A stretch of DNA of 23,939 nt from a virus: positions 1 through 23,939 of the IMG/VR virus record IMGVR_UViG_3300037189_008797. The stretch is one strand, 5' to 3'. The position numbers and the translations under genes are program-made. The notes under the pieces were generated by a model that worked only from the letters and a program-made list of their open reading frames with translations, searched no databases and was not told the DNA's origin. Of this stretch, positions 2-18,424 are shown piece after piece (within the stretch, counting starts at the first letter, position 1; each line of letters begins with the position of its first letter).

Positions 2-376
2 GAGCGCCATGCGCGGATGCGTCTGGGCGAGCGGTGGGTCAGCACGGCGCTGCGCCTGACGCGACTGGAGAGCGGTTTCCGTTGCGGCGCGCAGGGGCCT
101 CGTGTGAAGTCTCATGGTGGTAACCGGGCGCAGGGCGCGCTGCAAGTCATGCCGCGCACGGCCATTGCGATGGGTCTGGACCCGCGCAGGCTGACGGAGT
201 GCGAGTACGGCATCGCTGCTGGGGTCATGCACATGGAGCGCTGCATTGCCGCCGGCGTCCGCACGCACAACCAGATGGCGGCGTGTCATGTCGCAGGCTG
301 GGGCGGATGGAACAAGAGGCTGGCCGCGCGGCCCGAGCGCTACAAGCAGCAGTACATCCGCATGGCAATGCGATAG
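2..376 (+). CDS. Lytic transglycosylase (SLT domain), 5' end cut by window edge
   Basis: This is a small lysozyme-like protein of the soluble lytic transglycosylase type, which cleaves peptidoglycan glycan strands. The probable catalytic glutamate sits in LESGF (residue 18 counted from the ATG at 17). It is followed by GALQVMPRTA, the family's usual G-x-(M/L)-Q-(L/V)-M-P-x-T-A signature, and by AGWGGWNKR near the C terminus, which matches the AYNAG-type motif. The frame is open from base 2 through the ATG at 17 and the residues before that ATG look like coding sequence, so the true start is probably outside the window. The next gene starts 9 bases downstream, so they are likely co-transcribed. 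It could act in host entry, in lysis or as a particle component; it is separate from the late lysis cassette. The SLT family call is fairly secure and the role is inferred. Confidence 0.8.
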   Translation, partial: ERHARMRLGERWVSTALRLTRLESGFRCGAQGPRVKSHGGNRAQGALQVMPRTAIAMGLDPRRLTECEYGIAAGVMHMERCIAAGVRTHNQMAACHVAGWGGWNKRLAARPERYKQQYIRMAMR

Positions 377-385
377 GAGAGCAAG

Positions 386-511
386 ATGGACTATCTGATC
401 TTTATGGCGGCTGTCTTTGTGACACTGATCAACATTGCGGGCGCGGCGTTTGTCGTGTGGTTTGTCAGCGACATTTTGCCAGACATCATCAAGAACTGGA
501 GACGGCTGTGA
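386..511 (+). CDS. 41-residue single-pass membrane peptide
   Basis: A short frame begins at ATG 386, preceded by AGGAGAGCAAG (375-385), a good ribosome binding site. It encodes a hydrophobic segment (about residues 3-28, LIFMAAVFVTLIN then a Gly/Ala/Val stretch) followed by a charged tail ending NWRRL. It lies 9 bases after the transglycosylase stop. Its TGA overlaps the GTG start of the DnaA-like gene (GTGA at 508-511), an arrangement typical of real, translationally coupled phage genes. A membrane peptide right after a transglycosylase gene could be a holin-like or entry-related partner, but nothing in the sequence proves this. Its small size leaves some doubt; the ribosome site and exact packing support it. 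Confidence 0.6.
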   Translation: MDYLIFMAAVFVTLINIAGAAFVVWFVSDILPDIIKNWRRL

Positions 512-801
512 TCAAAGTCGGACTGACACGGGGGCAGCGGATTCTGCACGAGACGGCACAGAAGCATCTTGTGGCCGTTAATGAGATCCGAAGCGCGTGC
601 AAGCTCCGGCATGTTGTCCGGGCGCGGTGGGAAGTCGCCTACCGGCTCCGGAACGAGCTGCAGATACCCTACGCGGCCATTGGTCGATTCCTGAAGAAAG
701 ACCACGCGACTATAATTCACGCCTGTCGATCACATAAAAACCCCCGCCAACCTTATGAGCGGGCGGGGGCAAGTGAAGTAAGATCCCATGTTCCCGGCTG
801 A
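508..801 (+). CDS. Stand-alone DnaA domain IV (DNA-binding) protein
   Basis: A 97-residue protein resembling only the C-terminal DNA-binding domain of the replication initiator DnaA. The basic helix (about residues 38-51, RARWEVAYRLRNEL) corresponds to the DnaA segment that carries the DNA-contacting arginine. The DnaA signature is recognisable as KKDHATIIHACR (63-74), with Asp65 and His66 kept and the first of the two usual threonines replaced by Ala67. There is no AAA+ ATPase domain, so it cannot unwind an origin alone. Such proteins may bind DnaA-box-like sites and compete with or recruit host replication factors; that role is inferred. The GTG start is chosen because it overlaps the preceding stop in GTGA and precedes the whole domain. 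The last 25 codons run through a hairpin that looks like a minus-strand terminator. Confidence 0.78.
   Translation: MIKVGLTRGQRILHETAQKHLVAVNEIRSACKLRHVVRARWEVAYRLRNELQIPYAAIGRFLKKDHATIIHACRSHKNPRQPYERAGASEVRSHVPG
736..769 (-). terminator. Strong intrinsic terminator facing the minus strand
   Basis: Read on the minus strand, CCCCCGCC (from 769) pairs perfectly with GGCGGGGG (748-741) across a 13-base loop, followed immediately by TTTTTATG. This 8-bp GC-only stem plus U tract is a classic factor-independent terminator. On the plus strand the A tract comes first and no U tract follows, so it should not stop the plus-strand operon. It lies inside the 3' end of the DnaA-like gene, about 530 bases past the last minus-strand stop codon, where it would end late transcripts reading through antisense to the gcrA-like gene. 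Confidence 0.7.
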
Positions 802-823
802 ACGGGTAGGACAACCGAGAGAT

Positions 824-1300
824 ATGACTATGACCACGCAATCGTATGATGTCAACAAGCTCATTGAGCTTTGGAACTTAAAAGCATCGGCGTCAGAGAT
901 CGGCAAGGAGCTGGGAATAACGCGCAACGCTGTGATCGGAAAAGTAAAACGCCTCCGGGAAAAAGGCGTGCCGCTTCGATCTTTTGTCGCAAAACCAAAA
1001 GAAGAGCGTACTCGCGTCCGTGTCCGCGAAGTCAAGACGGATCGCGGGTGGGTGAAGAAGAAAAAGGTTGTGAAAATTGAACCAGTGCAACTGGACTTCG
1101 ATTTTCTCCCCCCACTGCCGGAAAGAAACATCGACATCCTGAAGCTGACGCCGTTTTCGTGTCGATACATTGTCGATCACGATCAGCATCGTGGAGCGAT
1201 CTACTGCGGAGAAGCAAAGCAGGGGCGCTCATACTGCGGGGAGCACGCGAGGATATGCTACATCCCGCTCAAGAAAGATCTGGGCGCTCACGCGCCCTGA
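824..1300 (+). CDS. gcrA: GcrA-family cell-cycle regulator homologue
   Basis: A 158-residue GcrA-family protein. In Caulobacter, GcrA binds the sigma-70 holoenzyme and activates promoters, with preference for CcrM-methylated GANTC sites. The N-terminal helix-turn-helix (about 10-47) carries SASEIGKELG and the hallmark TRNAVIGKVKRL. A basic linker (52-84) follows. The C-terminal part (about 105-147) has the family's Cys/His pattern, with SCRY at 112-115, YCGE at 127-130 and YCGEHAR at 137-143, corresponding to the sigma-interacting region. I chose ATG 824 (GAGAG just upstream) over ATG 788, because 788 would add 12 unconserved residues and overlap the upstream gene; ATG 830 is also possible. 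It is the last plus-strand gene and ends 2 bases from the convergent fibre gene. It probably redirects host transcription. Confidence 0.88.
   Translation: MTMTTQSYDVNKLIELWNLKASASEIGKELGITRNAVIGKVKRLREKGVPLRSFVAKPKEERTRVRVREVKTDRGWVKKKKVVKIEPVQLDFDFLPPLPERNIDILKLTPFSCRYIVDHDQHRGAIYCGEAKQGRSYCGEHARICYIPLKKDLGAHAP
1282..1297. terminator. Possible bidirectional hairpin at the convergent junction
   Basis: GGGCGC (1282-1287) and GCGCCC (1292-1297) form a 6-bp stem with the four-base loop TCAC, ending right before the gcrA-like stop codon. Downstream on the plus strand is TGACTTTAG and on the minus strand AGATCTTTCTT, both only weakly U-rich. The position between convergent genes suggests a weak two-way terminator, but the tracts are poor. 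Confidence 0.4.
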
Positions 1301-1302
1301 CT

Positions 1303-2373
1303 TTAGACACCGCCAAAAACGGTAATGTCCACATTGATTCCGGTATTTGGATCGGTTTTTCCGACTGCGTTTGTAAAATACCAGTCGATTGTGAACCCGC
1401 TAGAAGTTTTTGACGAAATAGACGGATTACACAATACACTTAGCCCTGTGCCGCCTGTGACATGGACCGTGTAGTTTGCATCAGCAAATCCGGATAAAGC
1501 AACGTTCCAAGTACCTGCAGATGCGCGCGTAACAGACGTTATGCTTCGCGAGAAGGTGACCGTAGGCGATGATGCGCCAGTGGCAACTAGTCCGGCTTGC
1601 GCCGTGACGGCGAGGGGCGTCCAACTTGGATTTGTACCATCAGTTGTCAGCGATTGTTTTGATTTCCCCGTCTGGGACGGCAAGACACTCGGAGCCGTTG
1701 TCCACGACGGGTTGGCCGCTGCGCCGTTGGTCGTCAGGTACTGGCCGCTTGTGCCCGGTGCCAATCCCGCCCACGCTGACGCGCCTCTGTACAGAACAGC
1801 GCCCTGCGTCGAGGACAGGAAGTCAAGGATCTGGGTGATGGTCAGGTCTTCGACATTGCCGGTGCCGGCGGTTGCGCGGCCCTTGATGATCTGCGTTGCG
1901 ACTGTGGCCAGCATCGCGTTCGTGACGCTGTTGTTGGCGATCGGGACTGTGCTTGTCCTTGAGATGTTGGTGCCGTCGCAGTAGATGCTCGTGACATACC
2001 CCTGCTGGCAGACAACCGAAGTGCCGCCGCCCGACACGGGCGAAATCGTGACCGTGAAGCTGCCCGTCGTGTTGTTGTAGACGATCCACTGCCCGCCGAC
2101 GACGGCAGTGGCAGCAGTGTTCTGCGGCAGGGTATAGACCGCGTTGCCGGTCATCACGCCCGTGATGGTGATGATCAGATTTCGCGTCTGCGTGATTGTC
2201 AGGTTGACCGTGCCGACGGACCCTGTGGCGTTGAGCGCCAGCCGTCCACCAAAGGCTGCGTCAATCGCGTCCCAGTCATCATTGATGGGGCCGGACCAGC
2301 CCGTAGGGTTGCCCGCGTAATCGTTATAGGCGGGCTTCTCGATGCTCTTGTTCGACGTGTAGGACGAAACCAT
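1303..2373 (-). CDS. Tail fibre-like protein
   Basis: A 356-residue Thr/Ser/Asn/Gly-rich beta-type protein and the last gene of the late block. The N terminus (about 1-45), with NDYAGNPTGWSGPINDDWDAI ending in DAAFGG, matches the module that opens many phage fibre proteins (roughly NxGxxxxTWGxxxNxDFxxID). Centrally, NSVTNAMLATVATQIIKGR and TSGQYLTTNGAAANPSW resemble repeated shaft segments of long fibres. The C terminus (about 280-356) looks like a globular beta domain. The role is probably receptor contact or distal tail structure. ATG 2373 is preceded by GAGGG. It follows the 609-residue ejection-type gene after 10 bases. Receptor specificity cannot be read from the sequence. Confidence 0.72.
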   Translation of the reverse strand: MVSSYTSNKSIEKPAYNDYAGNPTGWSGPINDDWDAIDAAFGGRLALNATGSVGTVNLTITQTRNLIITITGVMTGNAVYTLPQNTAATAVVGGQWIVYNNTTGSFTVTISPVSGGGTSVVCQQGYVTSIYCDGTNISRTSTVPIANNSVTNAMLATVATQIIKGRATAGTGNVEDLTITQILDFLSSTQGAVLYRGASAWAGLAPGTSGQYLTTNGAAANPSWTTAPSVLPSQTGKSKQSLTTDGTNPSWTPLAVTAQAGLVATGASSPTVTFSRSITSVTRASAGTWNVALSGFADANYTVHVTGGTGLSVLCNPSISSKTSSGFTIDWYFTNAVGKTDPNTGINVDITVFGGV

Positions 2374-2383
2374 TTCTCAGCCC

Positions 2384-4213
2384 TCAGATGTGACGGTTTG
2401 CGACTTCAAGCGCCTTCACGACATGCTCGTCGGGCGCTCGCAGGAGATCTTCTGTGCTTTTGGTGACAGCCTTGCGCGCGGCGCTGGCCAACGCTTTCAG
2501 GTTTACCGCGCCACCACTGGCGCGCTGCTGACGATCTTCGGGCGGAGCGGTAATGCGAGCGGCCTCCGCGGCCTGCCCAAGAACCTGCGGCGCAGGCAAG
2601 GCTTCATAGGCACGCGAGGGGAGCCCGCCGGCGCGTCCTATGCCATATGCGGTCAAGCCACCAACCTTGGGCGAAGAAAATGCAAGGCCCGCCAAAGGCG
2701 CTGGATGAGCAGCAAGAGCCGCTATACCGCCGAGAGAGCCGCTGGCCAGCATACCAGCGATTTGACCGCGAATACCTTGCGGAATAAGCGGATTCAGCTC
2801 AACGCCTGCGATCGCATACGGCAATTGCGGGTCTATTGCCTCAAGCCTCTTAATCAAGTCGCCCTTCGCCTTGGTGTCTTGCGAACGCAAGATCTTGCGA
2901 ATCTGCGTCAGAGATGAACCGCCGCGTGCGGTCAATTCTTTGTTGAGGTCGATAAGCTCTTGTGTTGCGCGCTGATAATTCTCCATGATATTCGCGTAAC
3001 GCTTGTCAGGTATCGTATCTTTGGCCGCGTTGGCGATATCATCCACGATTTTACGAGCAGGTGTGCCTTTATAAGTTCCTTCGTATCCGGTGCTACGCAG
3101 AGCTTGTTTGAGTTTATCGAAATCCTCAATGTTGTGAATCATTTGAGGATTGCTTTTCCACTGGCCCACAATGTTTTCCATCTGCTGAAGAATGGAAGCT
3201 GCTTCTGGGTTGACCACAGAACCCCGGTGATAAGCAATACTCCTTGCGGCTTGAAGCGCGTCATCGACCTTATTAAAAGGTAATGTCTGGTTGGACGCAA
3301 TTCGTCCCATGCCGCTCATATACTCGGCACTGCGCTGTTGCGCGACTTTGGAGATACCCTCGTTGACCCTGCGCACAAGATCAGTCGGAGATACGGAACC
3401 TGACAAATGCTCCCAAAAGACGGGGTTTGCAGTCAGGCCGGCGTTTGTAGCCTGCTGTAAAGATCGAAAGGATGATCCGCTCTGAAGTGACAAAGGCACG
3501 TTCAGAACAGTCGAAACACCCTTCGCCGCGACAGCAGGTGCTTTTAGAGCGGCGGCCAACGGATCAACCGTCTTGCCAACTGCTGCCGCAGCTTCACCAG
3601 CTTTTCCGATCAGACCGGGTGCTTTTGCAGCCAAAGATCCGCCGCCGGTCAGGACCGTGGAAGCGTCGGCCAGAACGCCGACAGGGTCTTTGGCAAAAGC
3701 TTGCTTAAAGCGAGCCACACTGCCGTATCGGTCACGATAGAAGTCTGCGAGCGCGTTCACAGCGGCTTCGTCTTGCGCCTTCTGTTCCGGTTTTTGTTCA
3801 ATACCGAGTGCACCAGCGGCCTTTGAGTATGCACCCTTACCAAGCGCCCCTATAGCCTGCGCCGTCTCGACTGGATGCATGAAAGGATGAATGACGGATT
3901 TGCCAAACTCGACCGCGCTGCTGGGGGCAGACTTGATAGCCTGCGATGCAACAGTGCCCCAGCCTATATCGGCAGGCTCTGTTTTTCCTATTGGCTGAAG
4001 GGGTGCGCCAACTTCAACAGGTTTAAAGGCCGTAGGGGTTGCGGTTTCAGCGGGGGCGGATAAAGGCGCAGCCTGTTGTGATGCACTTGGGCGACCGGAA
4101 AAGAACTCTGTCTGCATAAGCGGATTATCTTCTTGCGCAGTCTGAGTAGAAGATTGCGCAGGAGTTTTGCCGCTAAAGTAATCGGTCTTGAGGAGAGGGT
4201 TTTCTTGTTCCAT
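2384..4213 (-). CDS. Ejection-type internal virion protein, 609 residues
   Basis: A large, mostly helical Ala/Gln/Lys-rich protein of the kind podoviruses store inside the capsid and eject through the tail. Two copies of an 11-residue motif open it, NPLLKTDYFSG (5-15) and NPLMQTEFFSG (30-40). A long helical body follows, with Ala-rich, possibly membrane-active stretches around 165-225 and 490-530. The C terminus (about 564-609), with RASGG and then LLRAPDEHVVKALEVANR, is a segment I associate with ejection proteins of alphaproteobacterial phages. No catalytic motif is visible. It starts 4 bases after the stop of the 1284-residue gene, so the two are probably made together and act in the same entry conduit. 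The start is supported by the repeat beginning at residue 5 and by AGGTAAGG upstream. Function is inferred from context and composition. Confidence 0.68.
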   Translation of the reverse strand: MEQENPLLKTDYFSGKTPAQSSTQTAQEDNPLMQTEFFSGRPSASQQAAPLSAPAETATPTAFKPVEVGAPLQPIGKTEPADIGWGTVASQAIKSAPSSAVEFGKSVIHPFMHPVETAQAIGALGKGAYSKAAGALGIEQKPEQKAQDEAAVNALADFYRDRYGSVARFKQAFAKDPVGVLADASTVLTGGGSLAAKAPGLIGKAGEAAAAVGKTVDPLAAALKAPAVAAKGVSTVLNVPLSLQSGSSFRSLQQATNAGLTANPVFWEHLSGSVSPTDLVRRVNEGISKVAQQRSAEYMSGMGRIASNQTLPFNKVDDALQAARSIAYHRGSVVNPEAASILQQMENIVGQWKSNPQMIHNIEDFDKLKQALRSTGYEGTYKGTPARKIVDDIANAAKDTIPDKRYANIMENYQRATQELIDLNKELTARGGSSLTQIRKILRSQDTKAKGDLIKRLEAIDPQLPYAIAGVELNPLIPQGIRGQIAGMLASGSLGGIAALAAHPAPLAGLAFSSPKVGGLTAYGIGRAGGLPSRAYEALPAPQVLGQAAEAARITAPPEDRQQRASGGAVNLKALASAARKAVTKSTEDLLRAPDEHVVKALEVANRHI

Positions 4214-14787: not shown

Positions 14788-15030
14788 TCAACTCTTGTCT
14801 TGTTTGTGATCGAGCTTTTCAAAGATCTGGCGGCAGATTTCCTTGATCTCTTTCAAGCCGTCCGCAAATTCGTTTTTCTGCACATAACTGGTGGGCAGGG
14901 CGACTTCTATGCGTTTGACATCGTCGCGGAGAGACTTGACTGCGCTCCAAAGCTCTCGCGCAGCCCAACCCACGCCAGCCAGAACAATCCCGCCAAGGAT
15001 ATTTATCAGAATCTGTGTGTCCATTTTCAT
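14788..15030 (-). CDS. Holin-like small membrane protein with coiled coil
   Basis: An 80-residue protein with one N-terminal membrane segment (about 7-24, ILINILGGIVLAGVGWAA) followed by a charged, probably coiled-coil region (28-75) that contains PTSYVQKNEFADGLKEIKE. It is the first gene of the lysis cassette and its ATG overlaps the glycosyltransferase stop (ATGA, 15030-15027). The lysozyme gene follows almost at once. The position argues for a holin or a regulator of lysis timing, but proteins with this layout are usually annotated only as hypothetical and some could be membrane anchors. A role in superinfection exclusion cannot be excluded. Confidence 0.55.
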   Translation of the reverse strand: MKMDTQILINILGGIVLAGVGWAARELWSAVKSLRDDVKRIEVALPTSYVQKNEFADGLKEIKEICRQIFEKLDHKQDKS

Positions 15031-16118
15031 GCTGCCTTTTCCTCCGGCGGGCTTTCCGTCAGAAATTTCAGGTTGGCTCGAAGCCGTGCGTCATCCGGCG
15101 ACAACTCAACGGCGGTCTGGGCGTGCTTGATCGAAACGTCTCGCAGGCCAAGATGATATGCGGCGATGCTCGCCAGATCGTGCGGCTGATGACCCCAGAC
15201 TTCGGGATCAACTGTGTAAACCATCTGCCGGTCAGTGATCTTGAGTGCCCGCATGGCGGCAGCGAAGCACTCCTCCCAGCGGTGTTGCCGGTACATCAGC
15301 AAGGCAAGTTCGCACCACGGCTCACGGGTGTTCGGGGCCTCGAATGCGGCCATCTGGAACATGCGTTCGGCGTTGTGGAGATCGCCCATTTCACTGTAAC
15401 AGCGGCCCATGACGCGATAAGCGTAGCATCGCTCATTCGGCCAGTCAGCGCGAGGCAGTTTCAAATACCGCTCGCAGGCTTCGATGCTCTCCCGCCACTG
15501 GCGATGGAAAGACAGCTCCCGCGCATAGTAGAAGGCGTTACGCGGGCAATCCGGATCTTCCTTTACGGACAGCTCAAGCAGATCAAGATACTGGCCGCGA
15601 GACTTTGTCGGATCGGGCTTGTGAACAACCAGAAGCATGTCCGTGTCGGCCCAGACCTCCTTGATGCGCCCGTCCGGGACGGGGTATTCGTGGCAGGGGT
15701 GGTGCCAATGATACCCGTGCCGGGCGTGGATTTTCTCGTACTTGAAGGCGATGCCACAGCCCCAGTCAAACATGTACCGCAGGCGCGTTGTTTCACCCAA
15801 TTTCCACACGCGCTCAATTTCTTCGCGCCAGCCCGGCTGCATCACCTCATCGAGGTCAAGAGAGACGCAAATATCAATGTCGCGAGGAATAAGAGCGAGA
15901 GCAGTATTCCGAGCGTGATCGAAGCGCCAAGGAGTAATACAGATATGGTTGACCAAAGCGCCACATTGGCGAGCTTTTTCAACCGTGCCATCTGTACTCC
16001 CGGTGTCTGATATTGAAATCAGGTCTGCGTCTTTGGCGGCTTCACAAAACCGTTCCACGAACTGCTCTTCGTTCTTGCTGATCGCGTATACCGCGATCCT
16101 TACACGCCGATCTTGCAT
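15027..16118 (-). CDS. GT2 glycosyltransferase with C-terminal TPR region
   Basis: A 363-residue protein. Residues 6-105 form a family 2 glycosyltransferase (GT-A fold): AVYAISKNEEQFVERF, then SISDTGSTDGTVEKA (35-49), and LDLDE (87-91) as the metal-binding DxD motif. FDHARNTAL fits the same subgroup. From about 175 on, repeated helix pairs (for example YRVMGRCYSEMGDLHNAERM and DLASIAAYHLGLRDVSIKHA) look like tetratricopeptide repeats for protein binding. It would transfer a sugar to a phage, host or surface substrate, perhaps a virion protein. It overlaps the methyltransferase gene by 19 bases. Such enzymes with TPRs are common in bacteria as well, so acquisition from a host is possible. The donor and acceptor cannot be told. 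Confidence 0.82.
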   Translation of the reverse strand: MQDRRVRIAVYAISKNEEQFVERFCEAAKDADLISISDTGSTDGTVEKARQCGALVNHICITPWRFDHARNTALALIPRDIDICVSLDLDEVMQPGWREEIERVWKLGETTRLRYMFDWGCGIAFKYEKIHARHGYHWHHPCHEYPVPDGRIKEVWADTDMLLVVHKPDPTKSRGQYLDLLELSVKEDPDCPRNAFYYARELSFHRQWRESIEACERYLKLPRADWPNERCYAYRVMGRCYSEMGDLHNAERMFQMAAFEAPNTREPWCELALLMYRQHRWEECFAAAMRALKITDRQMVYTVDPEVWGHQPHDLASIAAYHLGLRDVSIKHAQTAVELSPDDARLRANLKFLTESPPEEKAA

Positions 16119-16702
16119 AGCGCCTCCCCCTCCGGCATCTCAGCCGCCCCGTAGGCCCACATTGGCTTGTTCTCTGTGAAATTCCAGTTTTCATAATGCA
16201 CAGGTGCGCACTTGGTTATGACCGACAAATTGCTGCCGGAAACATTGATCTCAACTTTTGAGACTTCCTTGAAAAAGGATTGCATAACCCACGCCAGCTC
16301 GCGGAAATATTCAAAGCGGCGCGTGTCATGAAAGACCATCTTCCCGCCAACTTTGAGATGTGACCAAACCTGCATGGCAAAATCCAGACGCTTGCTTGGA
16401 TGACCGTCCACGAAGATCAGATCAAAAAATTGATCCGGAGTGTATGGGTAATTATCAAGCCATGGCACTGTCCATTTTTCGTGGCTGATCTTCTTCAAGT
16501 TTTCACTCGTGCGCTCTATCCATGCGCGGTCTGTGTCAATGGATACAAATATTTTGGGACAGCATTGGGCGAAAATCTGCGTGCTTCCGCCCACACCAAA
16601 CTCAAGAATGTTGTTCGCCCCGCTACCAAGTCGAGCAAGTTCTCTGGCGTCACTCAGGCTGAGATCGCCAACAAACTCGATTTGATCCATCTTCACGAGC
16701 AT
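16100..16702 (-). CDS. Class I SAM-dependent methyltransferase
   Basis: A 200-residue protein with a Rossmann-type methyltransferase core. Motif I is NILEFGVGGSTQIFA (31-45), in which GVGGS occupies the SAM-binding glycine loop. The acidic residue after strand 2 is in SIDTD (54-58). Motif IV-like DLIFVDGH (94-101) and VGGKMVFHDT (118-127) follow. The FVDGH pattern suggests a small-molecule or sugar-type methyltransferase rather than a DNA methyltransferase, since no DPPY/NPPY motif is present. The GAGGG six bases upstream of ATG 16702 decides this start; a GTG at 16705 is too close to the ribosome site. It overlaps the glycosyltransferase gene, suggesting both act on the same glycan. The substrate is unknown. 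Confidence 0.8.
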   Translation of the reverse strand: MLVKMDQIEFVGDLSLSDARELARLGSGANNILEFGVGGSTQIFAQCCPKIFVSIDTDRAWIERTSENLKKISHEKWTVPWLDNYPYTPDQFFDLIFVDGHPSKRLDFAMQVWSHLKVGGKMVFHDTRRFEYFRELAWVMQSFFKEVSKVEINVSGSNLSVITKCAPVHYENWNFTENKPMWAYGAAEMPEGEALCKIGV

Positions 16703-16716
16703 CACATGCCCTCAAT

Positions 16717-17161: not shown

Positions 17162-18424
17162 TCACGCCGGGAATACTGTGATGATCACTTGGCCGGCAGC
17201 GCCAGCGCCAGAGTTTGCGCCCGTGCTGGTTGCGCCGCCACCACCAGAAGGGGCAGTACCCGCAGTGCCCGCGCCAGCTGAACTTCCTGCGCCGCCGTTA
17301 CCCCCAAAGTTGGAAGTTCCAGCCGTTGTCTGGGCGACCGATCCACCGCCGCCCCCGCCCCATACCGTGTTACCAGAAACGCCGGTTGCCCCTGCGCCGC
17401 CGCCACCATGATAAAGGGCATCTCTGTTTGCATCAGCAGAGGATGCTCCATTGCCGCCCGCGCCTTGATAATAAGAATAAAAGGCTGGCGCATCGAAGCC
17501 TGCCCCAAAATAAGGTCTTCCGGGCAGATTTTGTGACCCGCCAGCGGCGGCGGTTGTCGTCCCCGCCGAAAGCTGCCCGCCACCGCCACCGCCGCCGGTC
17601 GTAGTCGTGCCGCCAGCGCCCCCATAGGCACTGATGAGCGTGCCGACAGTAGTTGTACTGCCGGGGTTACCTGCGGTCGTCGCCGCAGCGACTTGCGCGC
17701 CGCCCGCGCCAATTGTGACGGTTTCCGTTGCCCCCATTGCTGACAGGGCGAGCCAACGTTCGTTATAGCCACCACCGCCACCACCGCCGCCAGCGGCGGC
17801 CTTTGCGCCGGACCCACCGCCACCCCACGCCTGAATCAAGACGCGAGAGGTTGTTCCGTATCCGGCGGGTTTTGTCCAAGTGCCGTTGGCAGCGAACGTC
17901 TGCGTGTTGATCGCGCTATTGGGTCCAGTCGGGCCGGTCGGGCCAGTCGGGCCAGTCGGGCCAGCAACTGTCGAAGCTGCACCTGTCGGGCCGGTCGGGC
18001 CAGTCGGGCCAGTCGGGCCAGTCGGACCCGCAACTGTCGAGGCTGCACCCGTCGCCCCGGTCGGGCCAGTCGGGCCAGTCGGGCCAGTCGGGCCAGCAAC
18101 TGTCGAAGCTGCACCTGTCGGGCCGGTCGGGCCAGTCGGGCCAGTCGGACCCGCAACTGTCGAGGCTGCACCCGTCGCCCCGGTCGGGCCGGTCGGGCCG
18201 GTCGGGCCGGTCGGACCCGCAACTGTCGAGGCCGCGCCCGTCGCCCCTGTCGGGCCGGTCGGGCCGGTCGGACCAGTCGGACCCGTTGGTCCTGTGGGAC
18301 CGCCAAGACTGGCGATCTGACGAACCGTTGCGCGACGAGAGACACCAGCTTGAACAAGCTCGACTTGCTCATTGCCAGCAAGAGAGACCACCGCCGGAAG
18401 ATTTGGAATCTGAATGATCGCCAT
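17162..18424 (-). CDS. Fibre with collagen-like stalk and glycine-rich tip
   Basis: A 420-residue fibre. Residues 1-40 ([20 protein letters not shown], then [11 protein letters not shown]) form a typical phage attachment module. Residues 41-168 are Gly-Pro-Thr triplets interrupted five times by AASTVA, a collagen-like triple-helical stalk. The segment [20 protein letters not shown] (176-195) begins a glycine-rich domain of the kind found in phage adhesin tips such as the S16 gp38 type, with long Gly runs (about 200-412). The protein is therefore built as anchor, stalk and receptor-binding tip. AAGGAGAG precedes ATG 18424. The stalk is made of 9-bp DNA repeats, so its length may vary between relatives. 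Receptor identity cannot be read. Confidence 0.82.
17921..18302. repeat. 9-bp tandem repeats coding the collagen-like stalk
   Basis: Near-identical 9-base units (ccagtcggg / ccggtcggg types) repeat in tandem and are broken by spacers like gcaactgtcgaagctgcac. The spacer-containing blocks are 57-66 bases long. Two larger copies, beginning at 17964 and 18096 (132 bases apart), share the same spacers but differ by one 9-base unit. This is the pattern expected from slippage or unequal exchange. The plus strand is also open here but only as a consequence of the repeat. Confidence 0.9.

Follow-up and report, generated by a model that had tools for sequence, protein, structure and literature searches.

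Does the presence, side by side in a phage operon, of a gene for a DnaA-like DNA-binding domain and a gene for a homologue of the cell-cycle regulator GcrA reflect a functional association, and if so, what might the two proteins do together? The question is raised by the left end of a 23,939-base virus fragment from IMG/VR (hereafter the window), the remainder of the phage being outside view. Structural genes of the phage, arrayed on the minus strand and including tail fibres, an SU10-type adaptor and a phage lysozyme, fill most of the window, and a near-identity search against phage records returned no match. The left end bears a short plus-strand operon in which a lytic transglycosylase-like gene is followed by a 41-aa ORF, dnaA-IV and gcrA. 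The features of this end are:

17-376, plus strand: lytic transglycosylase-like protein (SLT), truncated at the 5' end; PF01464 E 6.7e-4, narrowly missing the threshold
386-511, plus strand: hydrophobic (membrane) ORF of 41 aa from the ORF list, its stop codon overlapping the dnaA-IV start
508-801, plus strand: dnaA-IV, 97 aa, DnaA domain IV with helix-turn-helix (DHATIIHAC) and without AAA+ domain; PF08299 and fold match
740-769, minus strand: hairpin CCCCCGCC/GGCGGGGG within the dnaA-IV 3' end, with a T-run next on the minus strand; folded in all four relatives
824-1300, plus strand: gcrA homologue, 158 aa, N-terminal DNA-binding part (TRNAVIGKVKRL) and C-terminal Cys-rich sigma-binding-type domain; PF07750 and 7ye1 alignment
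1303-2373, minus strand: tail fibre-like gene, convergent with gcrA; PHROG 12796 tail fiber E 1.4e-10

Relatives of the transglycosylase-like protein start with a signal-peptide-like stretch (MKKTIIAAAMLLATPALA); full-length ones are encoded by three related contigs (L002, L004 and L005), with Ka/Ks below 0.07. The 41-aa ORF gave only weak PHROG membrane-protein matches. The hairpin, in which one compensatory C-G to T-A change was found in L005 (alignment columns 25/47), is possibly a terminator for the convergent minus-strand genes, and late antisense transcription across gcrA may stop at this strong, intrinsic-terminator-like structure. Among the structural genes, translations point to two further genes (15027-16705), one glycosyltransferase-like and including a TPR-like part, the other resembling class I methyltransferases, and a minus-strand structural protein (17162-18424) contains collagen-like GPTGPTGPT repeats comparable to those of some phage tail fibres.

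The earlier note had placed here a DnaA domain IV gene devoid of ATPase domain followed by a GcrA homologue with DNA-binding and Cys-rich parts, and both identifications hold. The dnaA-IV gene has a GTG start, and its 97-aa product leaves no space for an ATPase domain. Residues 11-74 match PF08299 (Bac_DnaA_C; E 1.5e-11, 44.6 bits for a cut-off of 31.5), while the match to the TIGR00362 DnaA model is confined to positions 349-417 of 437 (38.8 bits versus a cut-off of 343.9); domain I and the AAA+ ATPase (domain III) are both absent from the product. A structural match to DnaA domain IV, chosen beforehand as the refutation test, was found with the structure prediction (pLDDT 79.9 on average and about 90 in the core): the first twelve Foldseek rows are all DnaA chains, and the best VIA-align hits are E. 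coli DnaA domain IV on its box (1j1v, Z 12.5, 79 residues) and the M. tuberculosis DnaA-DBD (3pvp, Z 12.4), unrelated helix-turn-helix proteins reaching Z values of 7.5 at most. The product is thus DnaA domain IV alone. In the alignment to 1j1v, most of the base-reading residues are conserved, with equivalents of R407, D433, H434, T436 and H439 (E. coli numbering), and that of T435 is an alanine. Because of this alanine, binding to standard DnaA boxes is uncertain.

The longest frame of gcrA spans 788-1300, the best start being at 824, downstream of a GAGAG motif. Its product matches PF07750 (E 3.2e-21, 76.8 bits for a cut-off of 26.9), and residues 10-150 align with residues 8-155 of Caulobacter GcrA (7ye1, E 1e-11) as well as separately with the DNA-binding (5yiu) and sigma-interacting (5yix) domains. 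The recognition helix TRNAVIGKVKRL (TRNAVIGKV-RL) differs by one residue from the Caulobacter TRNAVIGKVHRL. Since the protein scores 58.6 bits against the NF050816 equivalog, for which 280 are needed, it is a homologue rather than a cellular orthologue of GcrA; its structure model (mean pLDDT 58.7) was too poor for a fold search, so that this identity rests on sequence. GcrA acts through its DNA-binding domain on the methylated promoter and its sigma-binding domain on sigma domain 2 (PMC7403470).

Conserved adjacency in related phages, which the earlier note had suggested looking for, was found: the operon is present in L002, L004 and L005, and the dnaA-IV/gcrA adjacency is consequently kept in four related contigs including the window. 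Within this group, DnaA-IV proteins are 87-96% identical, and Ka/Ks ratios of about 0.16-0.26 between the more divergent pairs of contigs indicate that dnaA-IV is under purifying selection. The gcrA genes of L004 and L005 (Ka/Ks 0.14 between them) represent another, shorter allele, coding for 108 aa and missing the linker, with 55% identity to that of the window in the case of L004. As gcrA synonymous sites are saturated between the window and L004, versus a dnaA-IV Ks of 0.13, and as the downstream genes also differ (a primase gene occupies, in L004 and L005, the place of the tail fibre-like gene of the window), these comparisons indicate that gcrA has been exchanged in two of the three relatives, yet is still found 3' of dnaA-IV. 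In L005 (5395-5721), the short allele contains one in-frame TAA and retains coding-type conservation relative to L004, which suggests a recent loss or a sequencing error. The CcrM-type N6-adenine methylase domain PF01555 is absent from the window, L002, L004 and L005; L004 encodes an NPPY methylase of the Dam/phage_N6A type, with a score below the cut-off.

GANTC is the CcrM site read by GcrA. The window contains 27 such sites versus 95 expected; none of the other 15 interrupted palindromes is as depleted, and this supports the alphaproteobacterial-type host that had been proposed. GANTC is also the most depleted interrupted palindrome in L002, L005 and almost all of the retrieved phages with rhizobial or similar hosts, AT-rich phages from other groups exhibiting little or no depletion. 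An extreme avoidance of CcrM sites was observed in roseophage RDJLphi1 (L072, NC_015466 bases 1-40000), with no GANTC in 40 kb versus about 225 expected. Genome contigs searched with both the DnaA-IV and GcrA proteins yielded no relative; therefore, no prophage host can be named. No target promoter for GcrA was found in the window, and, as the window holds mostly late genes, the control region is probably located elsewhere. Four GANTC sites in gaps of the window were considered as promoter-like GcrA targets and rejected, since they lie inside short coding frames of late genes. A leader GANTC upstream of the transglycosylase gene, common to L002 and L004 and missing in L005, was not used as evidence.

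Is the pairing limited to this group? Whole records carrying DnaA-IV were scanned for the GcrA family regardless of position, and the pair was found again in unrelated alphaproteobacterial phages: the IMG/VR contig L106, contig L112 and pUSDA31-2, a Bradyrhizobium elkanii phage-plasmid (NZ_CP126028) carrying an integrase, a terminase and a major capsid protein; the pairing is thus not limited to a single genome. In L106 (44.5 kb), an NPPY-motif methylase-like gene is followed by dnaA-IV, a GcrA-family gene with an ATGA overlap and an HTH_36 gene, while L112 presents a PF01555 methylase gene directly adjoining the pair, here in the order GcrA-family gene and dnaA-IV, then a helix-turn-helix replication-type gene. 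In pUSDA31-2, dnaA-IV (PF08299, 94 bits) overlaps a gene named GcrA family cell cycle regulator by NCBI, and a DNA methyltransferase gene is found a few genes beyond. As in the window, the PF08299 and PF07750 genes of these three elements are directly adjacent, overlapping or abutting; unlike the window, they reside in unrelated backbones with DNA methylase genes adjoining or nearby, and the family match of their GcrA-like proteins is restricted to the DNA-binding part (Pfam positions 1-66 in L106, 2-56 in L112 and 2-64 in pUSDA31-2). Consequently, the common core of the pair consists of two DNA-binding domains, the sigma-binding part being confined to the window group among paired lineages. 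The NPPY-motif methylase-like proteins of L106 (7414-7977) and L004 (2708-3238), encoded near the pair in two unrelated phages, are related to each other (36% identity). Because it recurs in other, unrelated phages, the DnaA-IV/GcrA pairing is probably a real regulatory module.

A serious rival, to which we nevertheless give a rather low probability, is that the two are unrelated regulators without joint function, co-located since early operons of phages tend to gather small regulatory genes. DnaA domain IV proteins are common among alphaproteobacterial phages, and most of these phages are devoid of GcrA: a GcrA-family match was obtained in one record out of 33 in one set of DnaA-IV records and in three out of 21 in another. 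Conversely, DnaA-IV is absent from the GcrA phages phiCbK, Bajun, Domovoi and 7-7-1. Phages with only one of the two genes are thus numerous, and those with the pair occasional. No annotated gcrA was found near dnaA-IV in the Rhizobium and Bradyrhizobium phages RHph_N28_2, RHph_TM3_3_3, ppBeUSDA76-2 and ppBjS10J-1. Podovirus ctNMl277 (MW202483) and its 31 related contigs share the layout of L004 and L005, a small plus-strand dnaA-IV convergent with a primase gene, but gcrA is absent from this group, most of the relatives checked having a different small helix-turn-helix gene 5' of dnaA-IV. In this lineage (L084, L086, L093, L095, L104, L105), the helix-turn-helix gene, of 67 aa and about 200 bp upstream of dnaA-IV, overlaps the dnaA-IV start by 23 bases; it was considered as a hidden GcrA and rejected, giving only weak GerE/LuxR-type matches and none to GcrA. 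Even where both genes occur, they may be apart: five genes separate them in Synechococcus phage Ssp-JY42 and about 11 kb in G059/G061, and they are also apart in G017. Mere co-location fits poorly with the adjacency observed in four of the approximately seven lineages carrying both genes (lineages counted by eye, the DnaA-IV proteins of L106 and L112 being related, and L112 and the window group being fragments): at least four adjacent pairs out of seven would arise by chance with a probability of about 3e-5 for genes placed anywhere in the genome and of about 0.009 for genes confined to a 15-gene regulatory region. It fits no better with gcrA lying on opposite sides of dnaA-IV in the otherwise similar neighbourhoods of L106 and L112.

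Which known systems could inform on a joint function? GafY of Caulobacter, formerly HdaB and first seen as a replication regulator, is a homologue of DnaA domain IV and, together with the anti-terminator GafZ, is necessary and sufficient for gene transfer agent (GTA) expression (PMC9632790, PMC11150451). In Rhodobacter, GafA contains a DnaA-like N-terminal domain and binds the omega subunit of RNA polymerase (PMC6363796, PMC9638019). Both systems thus comprise a DnaA domain IV-like protein beside, or fused with, an RNA-polymerase-engaging partner within a phage-like element of alphaproteobacteria, and the window pair can be likened to them (to GafY by its published description, PMC9632790). 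The partner in GafYZ is however a DUF6456 protein in a GTA, whereas that of the window is a GcrA homologue in a phage. DUF6456 (PF20057) had no match in the window, L002, L004 and L005, all of them fragments, and for this reason the window pair was not filed as GafYZ. In RDJLphi1, the gene of the DnaA-like/sigma-like regulator GafA adjoins that of a truncated CtrA (PMC6363796); as in the window, a host master cell-cycle regulator, here truncated, lies next to a DnaA-like gene, the partner being CtrA and not GcrA. No alignment was obtained between RDJLphi1 GafA and the DnaA-IV profile of the window.

By analogy with these systems, and not as a membership in GafYZ given the absence of DUF6456 in the window group, we tentatively favour, as a possible reading, that the two proteins together form a transcription switch used by alphaproteobacterial phages, GafY being the closest tested precedent and activating phage-like genes with an RNA-polymerase-engaging partner. 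The DnaA-IV protein would bind DnaA-box-like sites outside the ATP/ADP control of genuine DnaA, and the GcrA homologue, taking the RNA-polymerase-engaging role of GafZ, would engage the host sigma-70 RNA polymerase, along with m6A-GANTC DNA, to direct transcription at chosen promoters. These would most likely be those of phage genes, at the time when replication gives way to late and lysis functions. What is observed is the identity of the domains, the fold, the order of the genes and the recurrence of the pair; the joint action of the two proteins and the promoters targeted are what we infer. In tailed alphaproteobacterial phages, DnaA-IV genes are often found within an operon leading to the terminase, as in the Devosia phage-plasmid NZ_CP063402, where a DUF6456 gene accompanies dnaA-IV. 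This position, the domain and fold matches, the near-identical recognition helix, the presence of a sigma-interacting domain and an adjacency that survived the gcrA swap and recurs elsewhere count in favour of the switch, and the missing DUF6456, the missing target promoter and the many phages with one gene only count against it. A sigma-70-binding role would not be common to all pairs, as GcrA is reduced to its DNA-binding part in L106, L112 and pUSDA31-2.

We prefer this transcription switch to a takeover of the host cell cycle, the idea of the earlier note, by which one module may seize both replication timing and sigma-70 transcription; like mere co-location, it has in our view a rather low probability. 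In such a takeover, the free DnaA domain IV would occupy or titrate DnaA boxes or the regulators of DnaA while the phage GcrA would push the host to replicative transcription at methylated GANTC promoters. The GcrA recognition helix fits the host type, and the window is poor not only in GANTC but also in the extended GcrA-type motif YGAKTCG (1 versus about 17 expected), so that targets may be on the host chromosome; yet phages of such hosts are generally short of GANTC, whether or not they encode GcrA. The same idea was published for the GcrA of phiCbK (gp222), which was suggested to activate replication genes of the host (PMC3556154), and in other phages GcrA (the three unrelated elements above) or CtrA is reduced to its DNA-binding half. 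Although GafY overexpression disturbed replication and division, this cellular DnaA-IV homologue was judged not to act via DnaA/oriC (PMC9632790), and the alanine in place of T435 also speaks against a takeover through standard boxes.

Somewhat less probable still is a broader proposal, that alphaproteobacterial phages repeatedly assemble a compact cassette of stripped-down host cell-cycle regulators (DnaA-IV without ATPase, GcrA or its DNA-binding part, an adenine methylase and, in roseophages, a truncated CtrA), which, freed of host controls, would act at host DnaA boxes and GANTC promoters and rewire the cell cycle as a unit. That DnaA-IV serves phage DNA replication, attaching to the origin of the phage and bringing in DnaA, helicase or polymerase from the host, with gcrA as a passenger, appears improbable: primase, DNA polymerase A and SNF2 helicase genes are found near the cassette in L002, L004 and L005, the neighbours of DnaA-IV in other phages include replication-type genes (DUF1376 or HTH_36), and the 10-kb L002 contig contains three DnaA-box-like sites (TTATNCACA on either strand, at 4187, 6628 and 9475; about 0.1 expected), but no such site occurs in the window, DnaA domain IV by itself is not known to load helicase, and the recurrent gcrA neighbour would be left unexplained.

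Neither half of the pair is new, phage GcrA and phage-type DnaA domain IV proteins being already known. The phage-borne PF07750 proteins phiCbK gp222 and Atu_ph08 gp5 (PMC6630229) resemble that of the window, although phiCbK and the other GcrA phages tested lack the DnaA-IV gene. The earlier note suggested that the pair may be an undescribed takeover system. The pairing itself, often with a nearby methylase gene, was found described nowhere in the literature searched, which omits most subscription journals, whereas phage GcrA with the takeover idea, GafA/GafY and the gafA-ctrA arrangement of RDJLphi1 had already been published. If the two proteins do work jointly, phages would repeatedly have built one switch by combining DNA-binding portions of two master regulators of the host. 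This would link GTA control by GafYZ, phage GcrA and phage methylases, and the reading or resetting of the alphaproteobacterial cell cycle by phages could then be studied with no more than two genes. A role would also be suggested for the numerous phage genes annotated as DnaA-like.
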